From: Desulfuromonas sp. SDB
Lineage (GTDB): Bacteria; SDB-A
Assembly (NCBI GenBank): GCA_001412365.1
Contig: LKUE01000421.1
Location: 1 to 14,038 of the forward strand
Reading direction: 5' to 3'
DNA length: 14,038 bases
Numbering within the stretch: the stretch's first letter is position 1; every line of letters starts with the position of its first letter. The notes beneath the pieces were generated by a model. That model was given only the letters and a program-made list of their open reading frames with translations, was not told the origin of the DNA and ran no database searches. A program made the position numbers and the translations under genes. Below, piece by piece: positions 2,095 through 14,038 of this stretch.

Positions 2095-5000
2095 ATGTTA
2101 TTTGATAAAAAATTTTTAATAGAAATTAATAATCTGATTGAAAAATATCAAAATGGAGAAATCAATTATACCCATTCATCAGAGTTAGCCTTACAAGCTG
2201 CAGCCCTCAAAGCTAAATTCCCAAAAAGAAATATTGTATTAGTAGTTGATGATGAAAAAGAAATTGAAAAAAATTTAGAAGATCTGGAAATTTTAACTCA
2301 GACAGAAGTTTACTCTTTTAAATCCTGGGATAAAGCAAAAATTGGAGAATTTTCCCCCAGCAATGATATTTCCGTAGATAGGATAAAATTCTTGTATAAA
2401 TTGATCAATGATACAGGAAATTTATTTATTTTAGAACAGAAGTTTCTTCATCACCTGATACCCAATGAGCAGAGATTGAAAAAATTTGTAGTTACCTTGA
2501 ACCCAGGACAATCCTCTCCCTATTATAAACTGGTGGAGCAGTTAATTTTAGGTGGATATGAACTTTGCACTAATGTCCTCAATGCTGGCGAATACAGCAG
2601 GAGAGGGGGGATCATTGATGTTTTTCCAGTAAATTTAAAGCATCCGGTGAGGATTGAATTCAGCGGAGAGGTTGTAGAAGAAATTAGATTTTTCGATCCA
2701 GGATTGCAGACCAGCTTTAAAACCGCGGATGAAGTTGAAATATTGCCAGCTAAAGAATACTTTTTAACCAGAAATGAAATTGACCGCTACCTCCATGATC
2801 ATCCTGAATATCCAGATGTTTTTATAGAAGGAGGGGAATTATTAGCTCAGAAAATTAGAAATGACGATATTAAAATTGATAAAATTCTGGAACAATCTAT
2901 GGTTTTATCTGCTGCTGAAGTAAAAAAATCATATAAATGGATACCCTGTCATTGGTCTACGGGAATATTCAGCCCTTTGGAACAATTTACCCTTGAATTG
3001 CACCAGGACCGGAATGATTTTTTAACTCATCTGTCCAGGGAATATGGGGATTGGAAAAAAATCATCTTGATCAGATCAAAATCAATGATCAAAAAGCTTA
3101 AAAAAATATTCCCCCGGGCTCAATATTATCCCTTCAGCTTAAGCAGCGGATTTAATATCCCTGACCTCCACTATCTGATTTTAACGGAGAAGGAATTGTT
3201 TCAGGTAGAATTTAAACGAAGTCCAAAAAAGTTTAGTAAAAATACTTTGAAACGTGATGAAATCATGTATTTACCCTACGGCTCATTAGTTGTTCACGAA
3301 CAGGCAGGCATCGGCAGATATCATGGGGTCAAAGTAATTGATTATCACCGCCAAAAGACAGAATGTCTGGTTCTGGAATATGCCAATCGAGCCTGGCTTT
3401 ATTTACCGGTCAACAAACTTTATCTGCTTTCCCGGTACATTGGACCGGAAAACAAAAAGAATCCACCGTTAAGTGTACTGGGGACAGCTCAATGGGAAAA
3501 AAGGAAATTAAAGGCAAAAAAAATTATCTGGGACTTAACCATGGAGCTGGCTGAATTGTACGGTAAAAGAACTCAATCAAAAACCAAAAAACTAACCTCT
3601 CAACATGAATTGGTTGAAGAAGTTGTTAATAACTTTGATTATGAAGAGACCGATGATCAGAATGTTGCCATTCAAGAAATATACCGGGATTTAGAAATGG
3701 ACAAGCCAATGGACCGGTTGCTGTGCGGGGAAGTAGGTTATGGCAAAACCGAGGTTGCTCTACGGGCAGCAGTTAAGGTGGTGGAAAGCAATCATCAGGT
3801 GGCTATTCTCGCCCCCACCACTATATTGGCTCAGCAGCATTTTGATGTGTTCAGGGAACGGTTGAAAAACCTTCCGGTGACGGTGGAAATGATAAGCAGA
3901 TTTGTGGAAAAGAGCAAGGTTGACTCTGTACTGGAGGATGCAGGCAAGGGGGTTGTGGATATATTGATAGGCACCCACCGTCTTCTCTCTGCCGATGTCA
4001 AATTTAAAAACATCGGTTTGCTGGTTATAGATGAAGAACATAAGTTTGGAGTAAAGCAGAAAGAAAAAATTAAAAAACTTAAAACTAATGTAAATGTACT
4101 ATCTATGAGTGCTACTCCCATTCCCCGAACACTTCACATGTCCATGTGGAATTTAATGGACATCAGCATGATCCAAACCCCTCCTCCCGGACGTTATCCG
4201 GTGGAGACCCATATTTTGCCATTTTCTGAACAGATTATCGTAGATGCAGTGAATTTTGAGATACAAAGAGGCGGGCAGGTGTTTTTCCTGCACAACCGGA
4301 TTGAAAGTTTAAGTTCAATTTATCAGTATCTATCCAGGATACTACCCAATATCTCTATTGCCTACGCTCATGGTAAAATGAGAAGTGCGGAAATAGAAAA
4401 GGTTATGTTTGATTTTTATCACCATCATTATGATCTGCTGTTAAGCACCAGTATTATCGAATCGGGAATTGACATCCCCAATGCCAATACCTTAATTGTG
4501 GATAGAGCGGATAGTTTTGGATTGGCTCAGCTTCATCAAATTAGAGGGAGAATTGGCAGAGGATTGCAAAGAGCTTATTGTTATTTTTTAATTCCGCTCA
4601 AGGGACCCAGAACTCATCAGGGCAAGGAAAGATTGAGGGCAATAAGATCATATTCTAAATTAGGAGCAGGTTATCAATTGGCGGTTCATGATATGAGAAT
4701 AAGGGGGGTGGGAAATTTACTGGGCTCTCAGCAGTCGGGTTTTGATTGTGATATCGGTTATGAACTTTATTTGAAATACCTGAATGAAGCCATCCATAAA
4801 CTCAGAGCAGGCAGCGGAGAGCAGGGCATAAAAGAGATTGAGTTAAGTGTTGATTTACCTTATTATCTTCCCCCTGATTATATTGAAGATTCACAGGAAA
4901 GGGTTTATCTGTACCGTCGGATATCTACAGCAGATATAGACAATTTAAAAAATATCAAAAATGAGTTAATTGACCGATTCGGAGATATTCCGCCTCAGGC

Positions 5001-5283
5001 GGAGAATTTTTTCAAGGTATCCAGGATCTATCGAATAATGAAAGATTTAGATTGGATGAAGGTGGTAATTGGAGAAGATCTAAAAATTGAATTTGCAGAA
5101 GATACAAAAAGATGTTATATTGAGAAATTTGTTAAATCTTTGCCTGAAAAATGGAATCCATTTTTTATCAGGCAACATCAACAGCTAGTAGTACAAATTA
5201 AAAACTGGAGTATGGATTTTAAGAAACTTGAGAATTTTATTGAAAGATTTAAAAAAATATTGAATCTAACCGAGGAAAAGTAA
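2095..5283 (+). CDS. mfd: Transcription-repair coupling factor Mfd
   Basis: Mfd is a double-stranded DNA translocase. It pushes stalled RNA polymerase off DNA lesions and recruits UvrA to start nucleotide-excision repair. All expected modules are present in 1062 residues (E. coli Mfd is 1148). The UvrB-homology region includes YSRRGGIIDVFP at 167-178. The RNA-polymerase-interacting (CarD-like) domain starts near 393 with VVHEQAGIGRYHG. Helicase motifs follow: Walker A GEVGYGKT (545-552), DEEH (646-649), SATP (672-675) and QIRGRIGRG (815-823). The translocation (TRG) motif runs from about 857 to 883, ending GSQQSGF, and a C-terminal TRCF domain lies near 920-1010. The ATG at 2095 has no clear Shine-Dalgarno, but an in-frame TGA at 2068 limits any extension. 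The Walker A variant GEVGYGKT replaces the usual GDVGFGKT conservatively. The gene heads a probable operon; the next start is 16 nt away. Confidence 0.98.
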   Translation: MLFDKKFLIEINNLIEKYQNGEINYTHSSELALQAAALKAKFPKRNIVLVVDDEKEIEKNLEDLEILTQTEVYSFKSWDKAKIGEFSPSNDISVDRIKFLYKLINDTGNLFILEQKFLHHLIPNEQRLKKFVVTLNPGQSSPYYKLVEQLILGGYELCTNVLNAGEYSRRGGIIDVFPVNLKHPVRIEFSGEVVEEIRFFDPGLQTSFKTADEVEILPAKEYFLTRNEIDRYLHDHPEYPDVFIEGGELLAQKIRNDDIKIDKILEQSMVLSAAEVKKSYKWIPCHWSTGIFSPLEQFTLELHQDRNDFLTHLSREYGDWKKIILIRSKSMIKKLKKIFPRAQYYPFSLSSGFNIPDLHYLILTEKELFQVEFKRSPKKFSKNTLKRDEIMYLPYGSLVVHEQAGIGRYHGVKVIDYHRQKTECLVLEYANRAWLYLPVNKLYLLSRYIGPENKKNPPLSVLGTAQWEKRKLKAKKIIWDLTMELAELYGKRTQSKTKKLTSQHELVEEVVNNFDYEETDDQNVAIQEIYRDLEMDKPMDRLLCGEVGYGKTEVALRAAVKVVESNHQVAILAPTTILAQQHFDVFRERLKNLPVTVEMISRFVEKSKVDSVLEDAGKGVVDILIGTHRLLSADVKFKNIGLLVIDEEHKFGVKQKEKIKKLKTNVNVLSMSATPIPRTLHMSMWNLMDISMIQTPPPGRYPVETHILPFSEQIIVDAVNFEIQRGGQVFFLHNRIESLSSIYQYLSRILPNISIAYAHGKMRSAEIEKVMFDFYHHHYDLLLSTSIIESGIDIPNANTLIVDRADSFGLAQLHQIRGRIGRGLQRAYCYFLIPLKGPRTHQGKERLRAIRSYSKLGAGYQLAVHDMRIRGVGNLLGSQQSGFDCDIGYELYLKYLNEAIHKLRAGSGEQGIKEIELSVDLPYYLPPDYIEDSQERVYLYRRISTADIDNLKNIKNELIDRFGDIPPQAENFFKVSRIYRIMKDLDWMKVVIGEDLKIEFAEDTKRCYIEKFVKSLPEKWNPFFIRQHQQLVVQIKNWSMDFKKLENFIERFKKILNLTEEK

Positions 5284-5299
5284 TTGAGGGGAATCCTAA

Positions 5300-7009
5300 A
5301 TGATAAAATATAGATTATTGAATAAAATATTTCTGATCATGGCTTTAGTGTCTGTAATTTTAACCAGTTGCAGCAGCAATGGTAATCTGGTGACAATAAA
5401 ATCCAAATTTGACCAATCCTGTCTATACATAAATGAAGAAGATTTGCCTGAATATGTTTATTATCTGGAAGAAGACAGTTTTTGGCTTTATCTGGATTCA
5501 GTAATTGATTTTAAAGTATTAATTCAAGCTGCTTATCAAAATAAAATTGATAGCGTGATAAGTTATGATTTAGTGGATATTAAAAGAATGCTGATGATTG
5601 ATAAATTATGGGAAGAAGTGGTAGACAGTTTTTTATCCGATCAGGACTCCCTGGCTTATTTTTACTGGAGAGCAGGACATTATAATCTTAATCTGATGGT
5701 GCTGAGGTTTTATCCTTCAGTTCAGAGTGAAATTGATCTGATTTCAAATACCCTGAATGAATTAATGGAAAATGACACCGTCGCCCTGGGAAGATATGCT
5801 GACAGTGTAGTGGGTAAATTTCGATCAAATCCTCTGTTTAGAGGACCTTTGGGCAATTTAGGTCCAGTTTCTGCAACCATATTGCCTTCAACCCAGGGCA
5901 ATCTGGTTCTGGAGATGCCGAATTATTCAATATCATCACCAATGATTACTGATACCGGTTTGTTTATATTTGTCAGACTGGGAAGCAGCGAAGTGGAAAG
6001 CCCCGGGGAGTTTGAACAGTTAAAAGAAATTTATATTCGAGATTTTCAAAATCATTTCCTGTTTGAACAAGCTCAGAGGTATATAGATAATTTAAAAAAA
6101 GAATTTAGTTATGAATTTAACTCTCAAGGTATTGAAATAATCAGCAGCTACTATCCTTTTTCCAGATTAACGGTAGAAGACCCGGTAGTGCTTCCTGATT
6201 ATAAACCGGAACATCTTCCGGTGTGGCTGGTATGCTTTTCCAATGGAGATTATGCTGATACAGTTACCATAGGTGATATGATTAACCGTTTATCCAGGGG
6301 AAGGATGCTCTACCCTGATTTATCTGACCGCAATAATCTATACGTATTTTTGATGAGGGATATAATACCCCCTCTATTATTAGAACATCAATGTCTGCAG
6401 CGGGGCTTTGATGAAAACCAGGAGATATTACAAAAATATAGACAGATAGCAGATTCCTTATTAGTTTCAACTCTGATCAGCAGGAGTATGGGTGAAGATT
6501 TGGACAGTACTGAATTATTTGTTTATTATCAGCAGAATCCTGACAGGTTTTCCATGCCGGAGAGAGTGGAGTTGTCTATTATCGGAGTGGAAGATTCAAG
6601 TTTTGCTGAAATTTTATATGATTCTTTAGCCCGGGGAAATGATTTTGATTCTTTAGCTTATTCCTGGTCAGAACTTCCTTCGGGAGATAATTACGGATAT
6701 GTGGGAATTGTGGAAAGAGGCCGTTACCGGGAGGAAGTTGATTCAATTATATTTTCTTTACCTGATTCTACCCCTTCCCCGGTTGTGTACATGGATGGTT
6801 ATTACGTGATACTAATGGTGTTAAATCATCATCCGAGTTCACTTATACCTTTTACCGAAGCATTTACCCGGGTGGAATACTTTTATCGAAAGGAGATGAA
6901 ACACCAGATTACTAGTTTAATTCTGGAATCAGCCCGTAAAAATGTAGAGATAGATATTGACAGTACTTTAATTAAAAATATATTGAGAGATAAAAAGGAG
7001 GAATTATGA
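5300..7009 (+). CDS. Lipoprotein with two degenerate parvulin (PpiC/SurA-like) domains
   Basis: The 569-residue product has a lipoprotein signal peptide ending in LTSC, so Cys24 would be lipidated and the protein held at the periplasmic face of a membrane. Two parvulin-like regions can be made out. The first (about 128-228) has only the strand pattern and a GxLGNLGP segment. The second (about 420-515) has the usual order: FDSLAYSWS, a GYVGIVERGRY turn, then VDSIIFSLPDS. Neither keeps the histidines of active parvulins: the first-strand position reads LSIIGVED and the last GYYVILMV. Prolyl isomerase activity is therefore doubtful and a chaperone-like role is more likely. The helical segments in between resemble the SurA N-terminal chaperone region, but weakly. 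Start: ATG 5300 with GAGGGG at 5286-5291. The stop codon overlaps the next start (ATGA). A diverged PpiC-family lipoprotein is the best call. Confidence 0.8.
   Translation: MIKYRLLNKIFLIMALVSVILTSCSSNGNLVTIKSKFDQSCLYINEEDLPEYVYYLEEDSFWLYLDSVIDFKVLIQAAYQNKIDSVISYDLVDIKRMLMIDKLWEEVVDSFLSDQDSLAYFYWRAGHYNLNLMVLRFYPSVQSEIDLISNTLNELMENDTVALGRYADSVVGKFRSNPLFRGPLGNLGPVSATILPSTQGNLVLEMPNYSISSPMITDTGLFIFVRLGSSEVESPGEFEQLKEIYIRDFQNHFLFEQAQRYIDNLKKEFSYEFNSQGIEIISSYYPFSRLTVEDPVVLPDYKPEHLPVWLVCFSNGDYADTVTIGDMINRLSRGRMLYPDLSDRNNLYVFLMRDIIPPLLLEHQCLQRGFDENQEILQKYRQIADSLLVSTLISRSMGEDLDSTELFVYYQQNPDRFSMPERVELSIIGVEDSSFAEILYDSLARGNDFDSLAYSWSELPSGDNYGYVGIVERGRYREEVDSIIFSLPDSTPSPVVYMDGYYVILMVLNHHPSSLIPFTEAFTRVEYFYRKEMKHQITSLILESARKNVEIDIDSTLIKNILRDKKEEL
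6995..7001 (+). promoter_or_regulatory. Ribosome binding site inside the preceding gene
   Basis: AAGGAGG lies 4 nt before the ATG at 7006, within the last codons of the upstream lipoprotein gene. Together with the ATGA stop-start overlap at 7006-7009, it indicates translational coupling of the two genes. Confidence 0.75.
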
Positions 7010-8733
7010 GAAAAATAACTTTTGGCGGCATAATCATTGGTTTAGCCCTGTTAAGTTTAATATCCTGTTCAACAAAACCTAAAGCGGTAGACAGAGATAC
7101 TTTATTGGTTACTATTGGTCAGGATGATTTGAAAAGAGAAATTGGTATTGTGGAGTTAAGAAATAATTTCTTTGTTTATGAAGGAGAAGATCCTGACACC
7201 GCCATGATGAGGATGGAGCAGGTTCTGGATAATCTTATTGAAATGCATTTATTAGCATTAGGAGCAGAGGAAGCCGGCTACTTAAATGATTCCACTTTGA
7301 TGATTTCTTTGAAAAAATCCAGGGAAAACAGCATATTGGGTGAACTGTACTGGCAGGTAGTAATCAATACCACCAAAGTTGATTCCATGGAAATAGTTAA
7401 GATGTGGGAAGACATGGCTGAAGAGATAAGATGCAAACACATTTTAGTAAAAGACAGCTTGCTTGCAGACAGTCTCTACCAGGTGTTGAATGCTGCTTGG
7501 ACTGATTCCGCGGATGAAAACTTATTCGACCAAATTGCCTCTGAATATTCTGAAGATCAAGGAACTAAAGACAGAGGGGGGGATTTGGATTATTTCAGCA
7601 AGGGCAGAATGGTAAAGACTTTTGAAGAAGCTGCTTTTGCCCTGGAAGATGGAGCTCTCTCTTCGCCGGTAAAATCTGATTTCGGCTGGCATATTATATA
7701 CAGGATGGCTACCCGGGAAAATCAGACCCGACGCCCCTTGGAAGAGATGTATCCTCATCTTCTCAGTATGAAGGAACAGGAGATGAGAAGAGAAGTTGCG
7801 GATAATTTTATAGACAGCTTGATAGAAGCAGCTCAAGTTGAAATTCAGGAACCAGCTTTGCTGGTACTGTATAAGAGATTATCGGAAAATTCCGGAGGTC
7901 CCTATGGCCCGGCTCCTCTTACTTTTTCAGAAGAAGAAAGTTCCATGATCTTTGTCACCTATAGTGATACCAGCATTACCCTGGGTGAGTTAAAACAGAG
8001 AGTAGATGACCGTGAATGGACCTTACCCATGTTTATGCCGGATACTAATGCATTCAGGGACGCCTGCAGCCGAATTATGATGACTGATTTATTAATGGAT
8101 GCTGCTGAAGATTTAAATATTGGTGATTTGCCGGTAGTAAAACGAAACACCTTTGCCCAGATTGACCGCTCTCTATCCTGGAGACTTACTGAGGATTCAA
8201 TTAAAGCTAAAGTTGTGGTGGAGGAAGAAGAAATTGCCCAGTACTATCAGAAAAACCTGCCAGAGTTTACTTTACCGGAAAGAAGAAGAGCAAGACTAAT
8301 TGAGCATAATTCTAAGGACAGCCTTGAAAATATTGTAAGACCACAACTAACTGCCGGAGATACAGTTAAGTTTGATACATTAGCCAAGCAGTATTCCATC
8401 CATTTCTCCTCACGCAGCGGAGGAAAACTGGGAATGTTTCCGGAGGGAAGATATTTGGCTTTTGATTCAGTAATCTTTTCTCTGCCGGTGAATGAAATCT
8501 CCGATGTTTTTGCAGTTGATTCAGGTCATTTTGCCATTGTAATGGTTGAAGAAATTGCCCCAGAATCAATACTCCCCTATGAAGATGTCAGGGCGAGAAT
8601 TGAAGGGAATTTAATAAATGCCAAAGTTGATTCTTTAAAGCAGACAGTTATCCAGGAATTGCAATCTGAATATCCCCAAACTAGAGTTGAAAATTTCGAT
8701 GAGATAATTCAAATTCTGATTAGCGGTGAATAA
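7006..8733 (+). CDS. PrsA/SurA-like lipoprotein with one canonical and one diverged parvulin domain
   Basis: This 575-residue envelope lipoprotein (lipobox LISC, Cys21) is the best conserved parvulin of the cluster. Domain 1 (about 141-235) has the full signature: RCKHILVKD with His145, FDQIASEYSED, RGGDLDYFSKG, FEEAAFAL and FGWHII with His229. It should catalyse cis-trans isomerisation of Xaa-Pro bonds in exported proteins. Domain 2 (about 427-520) keeps the layout, with FDTLAKQYS, SGGKLGMFPEGRY and FDSVIFSLP. The first strand reads RARLIEH and the last SGHFAIVMV, so the histidines are shifted or lost and it may only bind substrate. An N-terminal helical region (about 30-135) with a DNLIEMHLLALGAEEAG segment fits the SurA/PpiC N-terminal chaperone domain. 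The start overlaps the previous stop (ATGA) and has a perfect ribosome-binding site. PrsA, PpiD and SurA are all plausible family names; the two-domain lipoprotein layout favours a SurA/PrsA hybrid type. Confidence 0.9.
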   Translation: MRKITFGGIIIGLALLSLISCSTKPKAVDRDTLLVTIGQDDLKREIGIVELRNNFFVYEGEDPDTAMMRMEQVLDNLIEMHLLALGAEEAGYLNDSTLMISLKKSRENSILGELYWQVVINTTKVDSMEIVKMWEDMAEEIRCKHILVKDSLLADSLYQVLNAAWTDSADENLFDQIASEYSEDQGTKDRGGDLDYFSKGRMVKTFEEAAFALEDGALSSPVKSDFGWHIIYRMATRENQTRRPLEEMYPHLLSMKEQEMRREVADNFIDSLIEAAQVEIQEPALLVLYKRLSENSGGPYGPAPLTFSEEESSMIFVTYSDTSITLGELKQRVDDREWTLPMFMPDTNAFRDACSRIMMTDLLMDAAEDLNIGDLPVVKRNTFAQIDRSLSWRLTEDSIKAKVVVEEEEIAQYYQKNLPEFTLPERRRARLIEHNSKDSLENIVRPQLTAGDTVKFDTLAKQYSIHFSSRSGGKLGMFPEGRYLAFDSVIFSLPVNEISDVFAVDSGHFAIVMVEEIAPESILPYEDVRARIEGNLINAKVDSLKQTVIQELQSEYPQTRVENFDEIIQILISGE

Positions 8734-8735
8734 AA

Positions 8736-8741
8736 AAGGAG
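8736..8741 (+). promoter_or_regulatory. Ribosome binding site that selects a TTG start
   Basis: AAGGAG lies 8 nt before TTG 8750. It is downstream of the in-frame GTG at 8726, so it cannot serve that codon. Starting at TTG also puts the lipoprotein signal peptide directly at the N-terminus. Confidence 0.7.
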
Positions 8742-8749
8742 AGTTTATT

Positions 8750-9652
8750 TTGACTAAAAATTTTGCAATATGTATATTGTTGTTCACTATGGTGATTTCT
8801 GGACTTGCCTTGATTTCCTGCAGCTCAGAATCCGGGGTGAATGATCAAGAAACCAATGGTTCCAATGGTACCACCAATGGTGAAACCAGTCAGTTTCTGA
8901 TGGATGATGGTTCTTCTACTATTATTGCCGAGGTAAATGGTAATAAAGTGAGATACCAGCCTTTTCGGTCATATATAAGGTATATGATGGATGTAGATCC
9001 GGACACTTTACCTACAGAGATAGTTGAAGCTATGCTGGAAACCTGGCTTTCCCGAGAAGCAGTATACGGCTTAGGGGTTGAGGAAGGTTTGAACAGGGAC
9101 TCGCTGTTTATATTTATGCAGTTTGATGCCTCCCGGCAGATTATTACTCAGATGGTATTAGAAAGAATCACTTTAACTCTGCCTGGAGTAACTGAAGCGG
9201 ATATCCGGGAAGCTTACAACAAGTGGAAAGATGAAGTGAAATATGAAAAGGATGTGGTGCTGTATCAGTTCCTTTCCGAAGCTAATGCTCAACTTGCGGT
9301 GGAGATGATTGAACAAGGTGTGCCTGCTGAGGAAATTGCCGGATTGATTGGCTTAGATACATTGATGGAAGTGAGGAGATTGTATTCACAAATGGAGTTG
9401 ATTGAGGAAATAGTGGCTCCTCTAAATGAAGGAGAAATTTCCGAACCATTCAGATTAGGGGAAGGATACTATCTGGCTAAAGTAATTGATGAACGGTATA
9501 TTGAATCGCCTATAGCTCCCTTTGATCAGCTCAGACCTTATATTATGCTGTATCTTACTGAAATCAAGAAGTTTAACTACGTCAATCAGTTTATTGATAC
9601 ATTGATAGGGGAACGGGTGATTACCTATCCAGAAAGCTTAAAAGTTAGATAG
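8750..9652 (+). CDS. Lipoprotein with SurA-like N-domain and one degenerate parvulin-like domain
   Basis: The product, read from TTG 8750, is 300 residues long. It starts with a lipoprotein signal peptide whose lipobox is LISC, with the lipidated Cys at 24. A short Asn-Gly-Thr-rich linker follows (about 28-45), then IIAEVNGNKVRY (58-69), the usual opening of SurA/PpiC N-terminal domains. A helical region (about 75-160) comes next. A reduced parvulin-like segment (about 165-245) runs from DVVLYQFLSE to LNEGEISEPFRLGEGYYLAKV. The segment lacks the GG-L-G loop and both histidines, so an isomerase role is unlikely; it is probably a membrane-anchored periplasmic chaperone. The start at 8750 leaves a 16-nt gap after the previous stop. 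A GTG at 8726 would overlap the previous gene by 8 nt but add a charged tail before the signal peptide. The next gene begins 8 nt after this stop. Confidence 0.8.
   Translation: MTKNFAICILLFTMVISGLALISCSSESGVNDQETNGSNGTTNGETSQFLMDDGSSTIIAEVNGNKVRYQPFRSYIRYMMDVDPDTLPTEIVEAMLETWLSREAVYGLGVEEGLNRDSLFIFMQFDASRQIITQMVLERITLTLPGVTEADIREAYNKWKDEVKYEKDVVLYQFLSEANAQLAVEMIEQGVPAEEIAGLIGLDTLMEVRRLYSQMELIEEIVAPLNEGEISEPFRLGEGYYLAKVIDERYIESPIAPFDQLRPYIMLYLTEIKKFNYVNQFIDTLIGERVITYPESLKVR
8853..8881 (+). repeat. Three copies of CCAATGGT encoding an Asn-Gly linker
   Basis: CCAATGGT occurs at 8853-8860, 8862-8869 and 8874-8881. In frame it encodes repeated (T/S)NG units in the linker just after the lipid-anchored cysteine. 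Such repeats can expand or shrink by slippage and would change only linker length. Confidence 0.7.
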
Positions 9653-9660
9653 CTTCAATT

Positions 9661-10974
9661 ATGCATAAATTTTCGCTTTTTATAATATCATTGACTATAT
9701 TATCTGCCTCTTCATTTGCAGGAGAGGCAGATAAAATTGTAGCGGTAGTTAATGATGATGTAATTACCCAGTCTGAACTGGATAATTATTTCAAGATTTC
9801 TAAATTATTAATGGGGGTTGAAAAAATGCCCAATCCCCGGTTAGAAGAGAATTTACTTGAAGAGCGGTTGAATGCTTTAGTTAATTACGCTCTGGTGGAT
9901 AATATGCCGGAAAGCCTGTCTTACCTTAGAATTGATCAATCTGAAATTCAGAAGGAAAACCTGAGAATTCTGGAGGAATTTGCCTCGGAGATGTTCGGTG
10001 AAGAAGCAACTATTGACACCCTTAAATCTTATTTTGAAAATGCCGGTCTTGAGTGGGAATTATCAATGAGATTGATGGAAAAAGAATTAATGTACAATGC
10101 AGTAACTGAAAGATATCTGGCATTTAATTATCCGGAGCTGTCAAATTTCCAAAAATTTAATGTAGATGATGAAGAGCTGTTGGAGTTTTATCAACAGATT
10201 AAAGACAGTTTAAGAATGCCCCTCAGTTACCATCTTTCCCGAATAGTTCTCTCCCCCAATCCTTCAGAACAGAGAATGATGCAGATTAATCGTAAGGCAA
10301 ACCAGGTCCTTCAGGCACTGAGTGAAGGTGAAGATTTCCGGTCTATTGCCAGTATTTATTCCGAGGATAAAGAAACCGCAGCAAACGGAGGTTATTTAGG
10401 AATAGTACACCGGGGAGATATGTTGCCTGAAGTTGAAAATTCAATTTTTTCTATTGAACCCGGCAACATGGGAGTTATTCAGAGTATGGAGGGTATCCAT
10501 ATTCTTTATGTGCCAACCCGGTGGGCGGATAGTGCCAGAGTTTATCAAATATTTATCTCCATGCTACCCAATAGCGAAGATAGCTTGAGAGTTTTACAGA
10601 AGCTTGATTCGGTAACTGCTAGATTGGATAGAGGAGAGGATTTTGCACAAGTCGCTAGAATTTACTCAGATGATCCTTATTCCCGAGAGCAGGGGGGGGA
10701 TGTGGGAAATGTACCCGTGGATTCTATGGATGTGTCATTATTAAGTATATTAACCATGTTAGAACCGGGAGAATATACTTCGCCTATTCAATCTCCCTTC
10801 GGTTATGTGATTTTTAAACTGCATGAAGTTAATTTAGGAGAACCGGTAGATTTCCAAGAAGCTAAAGAGCAGTTAAAGCAAAATTATTTTCTCAGACAGA
10901 GACAGCAGGTTATCAATAGATGGATAGATTCATTAAAACAGCAATTGTATTTTGAACAACGGACAATTCCATAA
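9661..10974 (+). CDS. SurA-like periplasmic chaperone / peptidyl-prolyl isomerase
   Basis: The 437-residue protein has a classical signal peptide (cleavage probably after SSFA, residue 20) and no lipobox, so it should be soluble in the periplasm. IVAVVNDDVITQSELD at 26-41 is the hallmark start of the SurA N-terminal chaperone domain. Two parvulin domains follow, as in E. coli SurA (428 residues). Domain 1 (about 188-286) has YHLSRIVLS with His191, FRSIASIYSED, ANGGYLGIVHRGDMLPE and GIHILYV with His280. Domain 2 (about 292-388) has RVYQIFISM, FAQVARIYSDD, EQGGDVGNVPV and FGYVIFKL, where the last histidine is replaced by valine. SurA escorts unfolded outer-membrane proteins across the periplasm to the BAM complex. 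It probably acts with the three lipoprotein relatives upstream. No Shine-Dalgarno is visible before ATG 9661; translation may be coupled to the gene ending 8 nt upstream. The gene name surA fits by architecture, but orthology is not proven. Confidence 0.92.
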   Translation: MHKFSLFIISLTILSASSFAGEADKIVAVVNDDVITQSELDNYFKISKLLMGVEKMPNPRLEENLLEERLNALVNYALVDNMPESLSYLRIDQSEIQKENLRILEEFASEMFGEEATIDTLKSYFENAGLEWELSMRLMEKELMYNAVTERYLAFNYPELSNFQKFNVDDEELLEFYQQIKDSLRMPLSYHLSRIVLSPNPSEQRMMQINRKANQVLQALSEGEDFRSIASIYSEDKETAANGGYLGIVHRGDMLPEVENSIFSIEPGNMGVIQSMEGIHILYVPTRWADSARVYQIFISMLPNSEDSLRVLQKLDSVTARLDRGEDFAQVARIYSDDPYSREQGGDVGNVPVDSMDVSLLSILTMLEPGEYTSPIQSPFGYVIFKLHEVNLGEPVDFQEAKEQLKQNYFLRQRQQVINRWIDSLKQQLYFEQRTIP

Positions 10975-11227
10975 GAATTCGGAAAGACTTGATTTATTTT
11001 TATTTAAAGTTAGACTTTTCAAAAGCCGGACACTAGCTAATAAAGCCTGTGTTCAAAAAACTGTTTTAATTAATGATCAGGTGGCTAAGCCATCATCTCT
11101 GGTAAAATTAAATGATGTTTTGACCTTGAAACACTTATTTCAACAAAAAAAATACCTGGTACTGGGATTCCCCCGCAGAAATATGACTAAGCAGGAAGCA
11201 AAAGAATTGATTGAAGTTTTGTCTTGA
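10952..11227 (+). CDS. S4-domain RNA-binding protein (HslR/Hsp15-like)
   Basis: The 91-residue basic protein carries an S4 RNA-binding domain from about residue 11 to 58. ERLDLFLFKVRLFKSRTLANKAC matches the first two helices, followed by VLINDQVAKPSSLVKLNDVLTL. The pattern is that of Hsp15 (HslR). In E. coli Hsp15 binds free 50S subunits carrying nascent chains and helps recycle stalled ribosomes. This copy is shorter than E. coli Hsp15 (133 residues), with only a brief Lys-rich tail (FPRRNMTKQEAKELI). The only usable start is TTG 10952, because an in-frame stop lies at 10934 and no ATG or GTG occurs before the conserved RLD. The gene therefore begins 23 nt inside the SurA gene and probably depends on translational coupling. 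No good ribosome-binding site is seen. It ends the operon that starts at mfd. Confidence 0.85.
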   Translation: MNNGQFHKNSERLDLFLFKVRLFKSRTLANKACVQKTVLINDQVAKPSSLVKLNDVLTLKHLFQQKKYLVLGFPRRNMTKQEAKELIEVLS

Positions 11228-11690: not shown

Positions 11691-14038
11691 GTGAAAAATA
11701 TAATTTTATTGCTGTTGTTATTACCTCTGGGACTTTATTCAGAAACAATTCAGTTATCTTCCCCCCAAACCGGGATGTCACTGAATTATTCTGATTTTAA
11801 TCAGATAAATTTAACCTGCGAATTTAATCAGGTTAACATTGATCAGATCCAGCAGGGGTATCAAATATTCAATACAGTTTCAGTTCCCCGCATTCACAGT
11901 TCGATGGCGGTTGGCTCCCCTCGATTGCCGGTTATGAGGAAAGTAATTGAAATTCCCGCGGGAGCTCAGGTGGAAGTTGAAGCTAATGCCGTAGTTGATC
12001 AGAAATTGTACATAACCAATATGCTCTATCCGGTACAGCCTCCTTTGGAAAAAATTCAAGGGAATCAGCCGGAATTTATAATTAATATGGATGCCTATAG
12101 TCAGGGTAATGTTTATGGTGAGCAGCCGGTGATTATAACTGATCAGGGATATATCAGAGGTCATCATTTTGTTACTGTAGATATTTATCCAATTAGATAT
12201 CAACCGGATATTGGTGAATTGGAGATAAGATCCCGCATTGAGGTTAATTTGTATTTAACCGGTTCTAATCCTGCAGTTACTGCAGAAAATTACCGGAAAT
12301 ACAACAGTCAACAAACCTCAGCTTTTATGGAGGAAATATTAGTTAATGCCAATGCTTATGATTTCAATGAAAATCCTCAGCTCCCCTGTGGTTTTCTTAT
12401 CATTGCCCCTGATGCCTATATTTCAAATTTAACTGACTTTGTCCAGTGGAAAAGAGAAAAGGGTTATCAGGTAACTGTGACCGCTACAAGTCAAACCGGG
12501 ACTTCCACCACCCAGATTAAAAATTACCTCCAGGATGCTTATGACAATTGGGCAGTCCCTCCTCAGTTTGTCATATTTGTTGGTGATAATAATCATATAC
12601 CCGGATACACCGGACAGGAGACTAATGTAATTTCAGATCATCCTTACACTCAGCTGGATGGAACAGATTTGTTTCCGGATATATGGCTGGGCAGATTGTC
12701 AGTAAGCAGTTCAGCGGAATTGGATTCTATTTTAGATAAAATATTGTACTATGAACAACCCGATCTGTGGACTGCCGGTAATGCCTGGTGCAAAAAAGCG
12801 GTATTTATGGCTAGTTCAGATAATCACAACGTCAGTGAAGGATCCCACCGCTGGGTAATCCAGACATACCTTGGACCGGACGGGTACAGCTGTGACAGCT
12901 TGTGGTACTACTATGGTGCAACTACCGGACAGGTCAGCAATGCTTTTAATGACGGAAGATCCTGGGGGATATACTCCGGGCACGGTAGTACTACTTCCTG
13001 GGCTGATGGACCACCTTTCAGCCAGTCTAATGTCAATGCTCTGACTAATGAAGGAATGTATCCAGTGGTGATGAGTTACGCCTGTAATACCGGGCAGTTT
13101 TCAGTATCCGAATGTTTTGCTGAAACCTGGATTAGAGCAGGCAATAAAGGTGCAGTAAGTTTTTGGGGATCATCTCCCAGCTCTTACTGGACAGAAGATG
13201 ACACTCTGGAACGGTGGGTTTTTCAGGCAATTTATGATTCTTCAATAACTTGGCAAAAAGGATTTTATGATTACGGCTTATTTGGAGTTTATACTTATGG
13301 GGGCACTTATGCTTCTCCCCAGTATTATTATGAGGCATACCACCTGTTTGGAGATCCTTCCATGGATGCCTGGACCGGTTATCCTCAGCAGGCAGTAGTA
13401 AATTATCCTTCAGCCATACCTATCGGAAGTGTAAACGTACAGGTTAACGTTTCTACATCTAAAGCACCGGTTGAAAATGCCCTGGTTGCTATTTCCGATC
13501 AGGATTCGCTGTGGACTGGATACACCAATTCCACCGGGGTGGCAAATATTATGGTCAATACCATTCAAGCCGGTTCATTAAATGTGGTAGTGACTGCCCA
13601 TAATCTGCAACCCCACCGTGGTACAATTTATATTACTAGTAATAATGCCTATGTCAGCTATTTGATGTTAAATCCCACTGGTGGATATAATAACGGTCAG
13701 ATAAATGCAGGATGCAATTATGATCTGGAAGTATATGTCAAAAACTGGGGAAATCAGACTGCTCATAATTGTTATGGGATATTATCCAGCACTGATCCCA
13801 ATATCAATATTACAGAAGACAGCGTTTATTACGGAGATATAAATCCTTCTGATTCCACCTCAGGAAACGGTTTATTCGCAGTAGATATTGCCTCTTCTAT
13901 CCCTGACGGATACAGCATTCCCTGTAATTTGACCATCACTGCTGCTGAGAGCACTTGGGTCAGTAATGTTGGCATTGCTGTTTCTGCTCCTTTGCTGGTT
14001 TTAGATGCGGTGGGAGGTCCGGATCAGGTATTGCCGGG
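11691..14038 (+). CDS. Secreted gingipain-type (C25) cysteine peptidase, C-terminus outside window
   Basis: The frame is open from GTG 11691 to the window end (782 codons). A signal peptide (MKNIILLLLLLPLGLYS) is followed by a propeptide-like region (about 20-225) with the GSPRLPV segment at 75-81. The catalytic domain (about 233-565) starts with CGFLIIAPD and includes SDHPYTQLDGTDLFPDIWLGR from 315. The catalytic His is in SGHGS (His431) and the catalytic Cys in SYACNTG (Cys465). Their 34-residue spacing is close to that of RgpB (His211/Cys244 as I recall it). HLFGDPSM (551-558) closes the domain. An immunoglobulin-like domain (about 575-655) with AHNLQPHRGTIYI, typical after C25 domains, precedes a CARDB-like segment. 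Such enzymes are secreted zymogens that cleave proteins outside the cell, often through the type IX system; the sorting domain that would show this lies beyond the window. Specificity (Arg, Lys or other) cannot be read from this. Confidence 0.93.
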   Translation, partial: MKNIILLLLLLPLGLYSETIQLSSPQTGMSLNYSDFNQINLTCEFNQVNIDQIQQGYQIFNTVSVPRIHSSMAVGSPRLPVMRKVIEIPAGAQVEVEANAVVDQKLYITNMLYPVQPPLEKIQGNQPEFIINMDAYSQGNVYGEQPVIITDQGYIRGHHFVTVDIYPIRYQPDIGELEIRSRIEVNLYLTGSNPAVTAENYRKYNSQQTSAFMEEILVNANAYDFNENPQLPCGFLIIAPDAYISNLTDFVQWKREKGYQVTVTATSQTGTSTTQIKNYLQDAYDNWAVPPQFVIFVGDNNHIPGYTGQETNVISDHPYTQLDGTDLFPDIWLGRLSVSSSAELDSILDKILYYEQPDLWTAGNAWCKKAVFMASSDNHNVSEGSHRWVIQTYLGPDGYSCDSLWYYYGATTGQVSNAFNDGRSWGIYSGHGSTTSWADGPPFSQSNVNALTNEGMYPVVMSYACNTGQFSVSECFAETWIRAGNKGAVSFWGSSPSSYWTEDDTLERWVFQAIYDSSITWQKGFYDYGLFGVYTYGGTYASPQYYYEAYHLFGDPSMDAWTGYPQQAVVNYPSAIPIGSVNVQVNVSTSKAPVENALVAISDQDSLWTGYTNSTGVANIMVNTIQAGSLNVVVTAHNLQPHRGTIYITSNNAYVSYLMLNPTGGYNNGQINAGCNYDLEVYVKNWGNQTAHNCYGILSSTDPNINITEDSVYYGDINPSDSTSGNGLFAVDIASSIPDGYSIPCNLTITAAESTWVSNVGIAVSAPLLVLDAVGGPDQVLP

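Follow-up and report, generated by a model that had tools for sequence, protein, structure and literature searches.

An mfd-linked array of parvulin-family genes in Desulfuromonas sp. SDB, probably for envelope protein folding, with an extra degenerate member

The genes described here have their closest known counterparts in SurA of Escherichia coli, the PrsA foldase lipoproteins, PEB4/HP_0175 and the SurA-like chaperone LIC12922. The prolyl isomerase (PPIase) activity of E. coli SurA seems not to be essential for the assembly of outer-membrane proteins (PMC9820271), and SurA binds its clients through its core and P1 domains (PMC11401910; this P1 is a domain of SurA, not the gene called P1 below). 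A comparable gene set is present in Flavobacterium (L043-L049), where it encodes a 656-aa PPIase, a 283-aa lipoprotein and a SurA of about 482 aa.

The window considered here, 14,038 nucleotides in length, is the whole of one contig (G000:C421) of the 3.14 Mb genome of Desulfuromonas sp. SDB. A tight gene run on its forward strand is headed by mfd, which encodes the transcription-repair coupling factor (2095..5283; NCBIfam TIGR00580, 911 bits against a cut-off of 800). Behind it, head to tail and all co-directional, lie genes for two predicted two-module lipoproteins, P1 (5300..7009, 569 aa) and P2 (7006..8733; Pfam, 113 bits), a predicted single-module lipoprotein with a PrsA/PEB4-like layout, P3 (8750..9652; PF13145, 34 bits), and a soluble SurA-like chaperone with two parvulin modules, P4 (9661..10974), identified by a SurA profile match. 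The spacings are 16 bp between mfd and P1, a 4-bp overlap between P1 and P2 in which the start of P2 overlaps the stop of P1 (ATGA), 16 bp between P2 and P3, and 8 bp between P3 and P4. For P3, the best reading of the start is the TTG at 8750, preferred over the listed GTG at 8726 because a ribosome-binding site (ggag) is found upstream of the former and not before the latter. With this start, the lipobox cysteines lie in the signal peptides at Cys24 (P1), Cys21 (P2) and Cys24 (P3), the positions given in an earlier note on this DNA, and all three are retained in three relatives. Counts of promoter- and terminator-like sites were close to those in shuffled sequence. The host phylum was sampled through four genomes (G000-G003) from two genera; P1-P2-P3-P4 is intact in all four, and mfd precedes it in three, the contig of G003 stopping at P1 with mfd on a separate contig. 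Further downstream in the window, an S4-domain protein (Hsp15-like; 10952-11227) has a TTG start that overlaps the end of P4, and the contig end holds a gene for a large predicted secreted protein (11691-14036), by eye resembling gingipain-type (C25) peptidases, that is conserved next to SurA in G001-G003.

The relationship of P4 to SurA extends over the whole protein. The profile of its family matches SurA (1m5y, residues 3-403) at full length with an E-value of 3.8e-55, and it matches the PPIase 8hm4 in the same way (1.5e-57; a literature search on 8HM3/BfUbb gave nothing relevant); the single sequence scores 29.6 bits against PF09312, just below the cut-off of 30.8. Like E. coli SurA, P4 has an N-terminal core, two parvulin modules and a C-terminal segment; unlike it, P4 is without both histidines of module 2 and the first histidine of module 1. 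P2 and P3 recall the PrsA foldases in the fold of P2 module 1 and of P3 and in their predicted lipid anchor, but P2 carries an additional module that is degenerate, P3 is without the active site, and both genes adjoin a SurA gene. P3 also matches the PEB4 profile over nearly its whole length (E 4e-15) and has LIC12922 as its best Foldseek match, differing from PEB4/HP_0175 and LIC12922 in its lipobox and its degenerate parvulin module. The Flavobacterium set shares the gene order of P2-P3-P4 and a degenerate middle lipoprotein; however, it has neither mfd nor P1, and the two modules of its 656-aa protein stand side by side, unlike those of P2.

Seven parvulin modules can be counted in the four proteins, two each in P1, P2 and P4 and one in P3. 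Six of them score above the curated Pfam cut-offs (PF00639, PF13145 or PF13616), namely P1 module 2 (Rotamase_2, residues 408-521), P2 modules 1 and 2 (140-232 and 405-529), the P3 module (155-270 in GTG numbering) and P4 modules 1 and 2 (187-284 and about 300-403). P1 module 1, too diverged for a Pfam match, was missed by this search, and its assignment comes from profile comparison. Residues 184-549 of P1 align colinearly with residues 191-556 of P2 (hhalign profile-profile, E 5e-20), and a comparison of P1 residues 118-238 with a parvulin profile of 111 rows, none of them from P1, gives a score of 36.1, where the maximum in 100 column shuffles was 15.6 and three other segments of P1 reached only 8.9-10.4. 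These two results support P1 module 1 as a predicted parvulin module and so bring the number to seven. The P1 profile also matches HP_0175 weakly (profile positions 186-264, E 0.003), and the AlphaFold model of P1, built from an alignment of only four sequences, has a pLDDT of 39.8. For P3, the predicted model of the module (residues about 171-257, with pLDDT mostly 70-88 in the strands) superposes on the PrsA PPIase fragment 6xd8 (VIA Z 9.4, rmsd 3.0 over 83 aa) and finds 3nrk by Foldseek (3e-8), and the module is clearly parvulin-folded in that model. The earlier note's description, four consecutive parvulin-family genes with about seven modules, comprising three lipoproteins and a soluble SurA-like protein, is therefore upheld, and of the two structural results that the note named as refuting it, the one for the gene at 8750 is contradicted by the model of P3.

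A complete active site (two His, Asp or Cys, Leu, Met and Phe), as read off the module alignment, is found only in P2 module 1 (H145, D184, GG191-192, L194, M202, F206 and H229), which agrees with the note's claim of one fully canonical module in the gene at 7006. One or both His, together with a further position, are missing from each of the other six modules. P4 module 1 keeps D236, the GG turn, L246, M254 and H280, with R194 in place of the first His and V258 in place of Phe. The positions of the two histidines are occupied by Q296 and V383 in P4 module 2, by R430 and F509 in P2 module 2, and by V134 and F222 in P1 module 1; in P1 module 2 and in P3 the first His is missing and a tyrosine (Y502 and Y249, the latter in GTG numbering) stands at the second. 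The distribution of these losses across genomes differs from module to module. In other genomes, the P2-type proteins mostly retain both histidines of module 1, and nearly all are without the pair in module 2, one having a His at the second site, so that the degeneration of P2 module 2 is old. The first His of SurA module 1 is absent from P4 and also from G006, G010, G009, G057 and Flavobacterium. SurA module 2 has lost both histidines in the host phylum; most other genomes keep the first and several keep both. The P3 site is degenerate in the present genome and in Flavobacterium, and both histidines are present in G060 and G104. The losses are therefore of different ages rather than the outcome of a single process. 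Catalysis may have been lost in the degenerate modules, as the note proposed.

The earlier note had proposed that the four genes arose by serial duplication, and here the comparisons point elsewhere. P2 and P4 resemble each other less than each resembles its counterparts in unrelated genomes, and P2 is closer to its counterpart in G006 (2e-44) than to P1 (1e-18). In a module tree, modules group by gene and position across lineages, with 10 label changes for the seven gene/position classes versus 31.9 in shuffles, many deep branches being weak. The order mfd-P2-P3-SurA occurs in G060, G076, G104 and G047, the first gene of the run being shorter in the last two (about 455 aa), and P2-P3-SurA occurs without mfd in G006, G010 and Flavobacterium (L060, L067, L049). 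The shared order and the clustering by gene and position together argue that the array is a widespread cluster type that was inherited largely assembled. P1 is the one gene of the four with the appearance of a duplication within the lineage, and a serial duplication of all four is rejected on these comparisons.

Several observations concern the surroundings of such genes. In a spread sample of 107 genomes, mfd is present in 98. Outside the host phylum, the genomes with a parvulin gene within a few genes of mfd number at least 31, each from a different family; this figure is a lower bound, drawn from the neighborhoods fetched among the parvulin matches listed. The placement of parvulin/SurA genes after mfd (2095-10974 here; L061, L071-L108) links a DNA-repair translocase to envelope foldases across unrelated families, and our literature search for an mfd-SurA operon found no paper describing a linkage of mfd with envelope PPIases. 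A further parvulin protein (L055 on G000:C256, L056, L057), 542 aa long in the relatives and cut by a contig end in the present genome, adjoins a conserved four-gene run of about 320, 470, 335 and 260 aa, one product of which resembles, by eye, an MBOAT-type acyltransferase. The relatives also have a PpiD-sized parvulin protein of 600-655 aa (G001:C82, G002:C28, G003:C12); no counterpart is among the PF00639 matches listed for G000, where the copy could be weak or unassembled.

The unusual part of the array is P1, which by these comparisons is an extra degenerate gene confined to the host phylum within our sample: it is present in all four host-phylum genomes and in none of the other loci read. 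P1 is probably a whole-gene duplicate of P2, specific to this lineage, that lost both sites. It is colinear with P2, its module 2 is sister to the host-phylum P2 module 2 (support 96/79), and a single clade of P1 and P2 is not rejected (p-AU 0.51). Against this reading, its module 1 has a long branch and is placed, loosely, with the first modules of P4. The whole-protein tree of P1 and P2 is weak (44/72), its group of P1 with host-phylum P2 also including L108, so that a lineage-specific duplication is likely and not proven. The long branches and weak support in that tree would suit an ancient paralog lost from other phyla; we regard this as possible and doubt it, because of the grouping of the second modules and because no gene in the mfd/SurA neighborhoods read outside the host phylum scores better with the P1 profile than with the P2 profile. 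P1 is also the most diverged of the four, with 37-38% identity to its orthologs as against 58-59% for P2, 54-57% for P3 and 45-48% for P4, as might be expected of a decaying pseudogene. However, its reading frame and lipobox cysteine are kept in all four genomes and many columns are invariant among its orthologs; decay is highly improbable, and we rejected it on the intact frames.

By analogy with SurA, P1-P4 are most likely a periplasmic PPIase/holdase set for outer-membrane proteins. We consider it fairly likely that the locus is a cluster of mfd, a PPIase lipoprotein, a small parvulin lipoprotein and SurA that serves envelope protein folding, P1 being an additional gene of the host phylum. 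All four proteins would be exported by Sec, with P1-P3 lipid-anchored and facing the periplasm and P4 free; P2 module 1 would carry out prolyl isomerization, and the core domain of P4 would deliver outer-membrane proteins, still unfolded, to BAM. In P1, P3 and P4, the degenerate modules would bind clients or partners rather than catalyze, and P1, copied as a whole gene from P2, would have been retained as a tethered non-catalytic chaperone. A more specific version, in which P1 serves as a dedicated pseudo-PPIase, having turned after duplication from a foldase into a tethered chaperone, and forms one client-handling assembly with P2, P3 and SurA, seems to us unlikely. Less likely still is that the four proteins physically associate as a membrane-tethered relay or complex, with clients passing from P1, P2 and P3 to SurA: the tight co-directional spacing and the order conserved in four genomes are what it would predict, but shared transcription could by itself account for gene order, and P2-P3-SurA occurs elsewhere without P1, which would make P1 dispensable for the core set. 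We likewise hold it improbable that the degenerate modules retain PPIase activity at their altered sites. Missing histidines are not proof of inactivity, because the human Pin1 double mutant H59L/H157L is described as active (Bailey et al. 2008, as cited in PMC2678132); Bacillus subtilis PrsA D154A retains half its activity (PMC2678132), and several of the degenerate modules retain Asp, Met or the GG turn. Against this, P1 and P3 have lost most site positions, beyond the His pair, and the replacements vary between modules.

Finally, we note that the folding cluster, with one complete and six degenerate modules and an apparent lineage-specific pseudo-PPIase, offers a natural test of why parvulin modules persist without the canonical site; SurA itself functions largely without isomerase activity.
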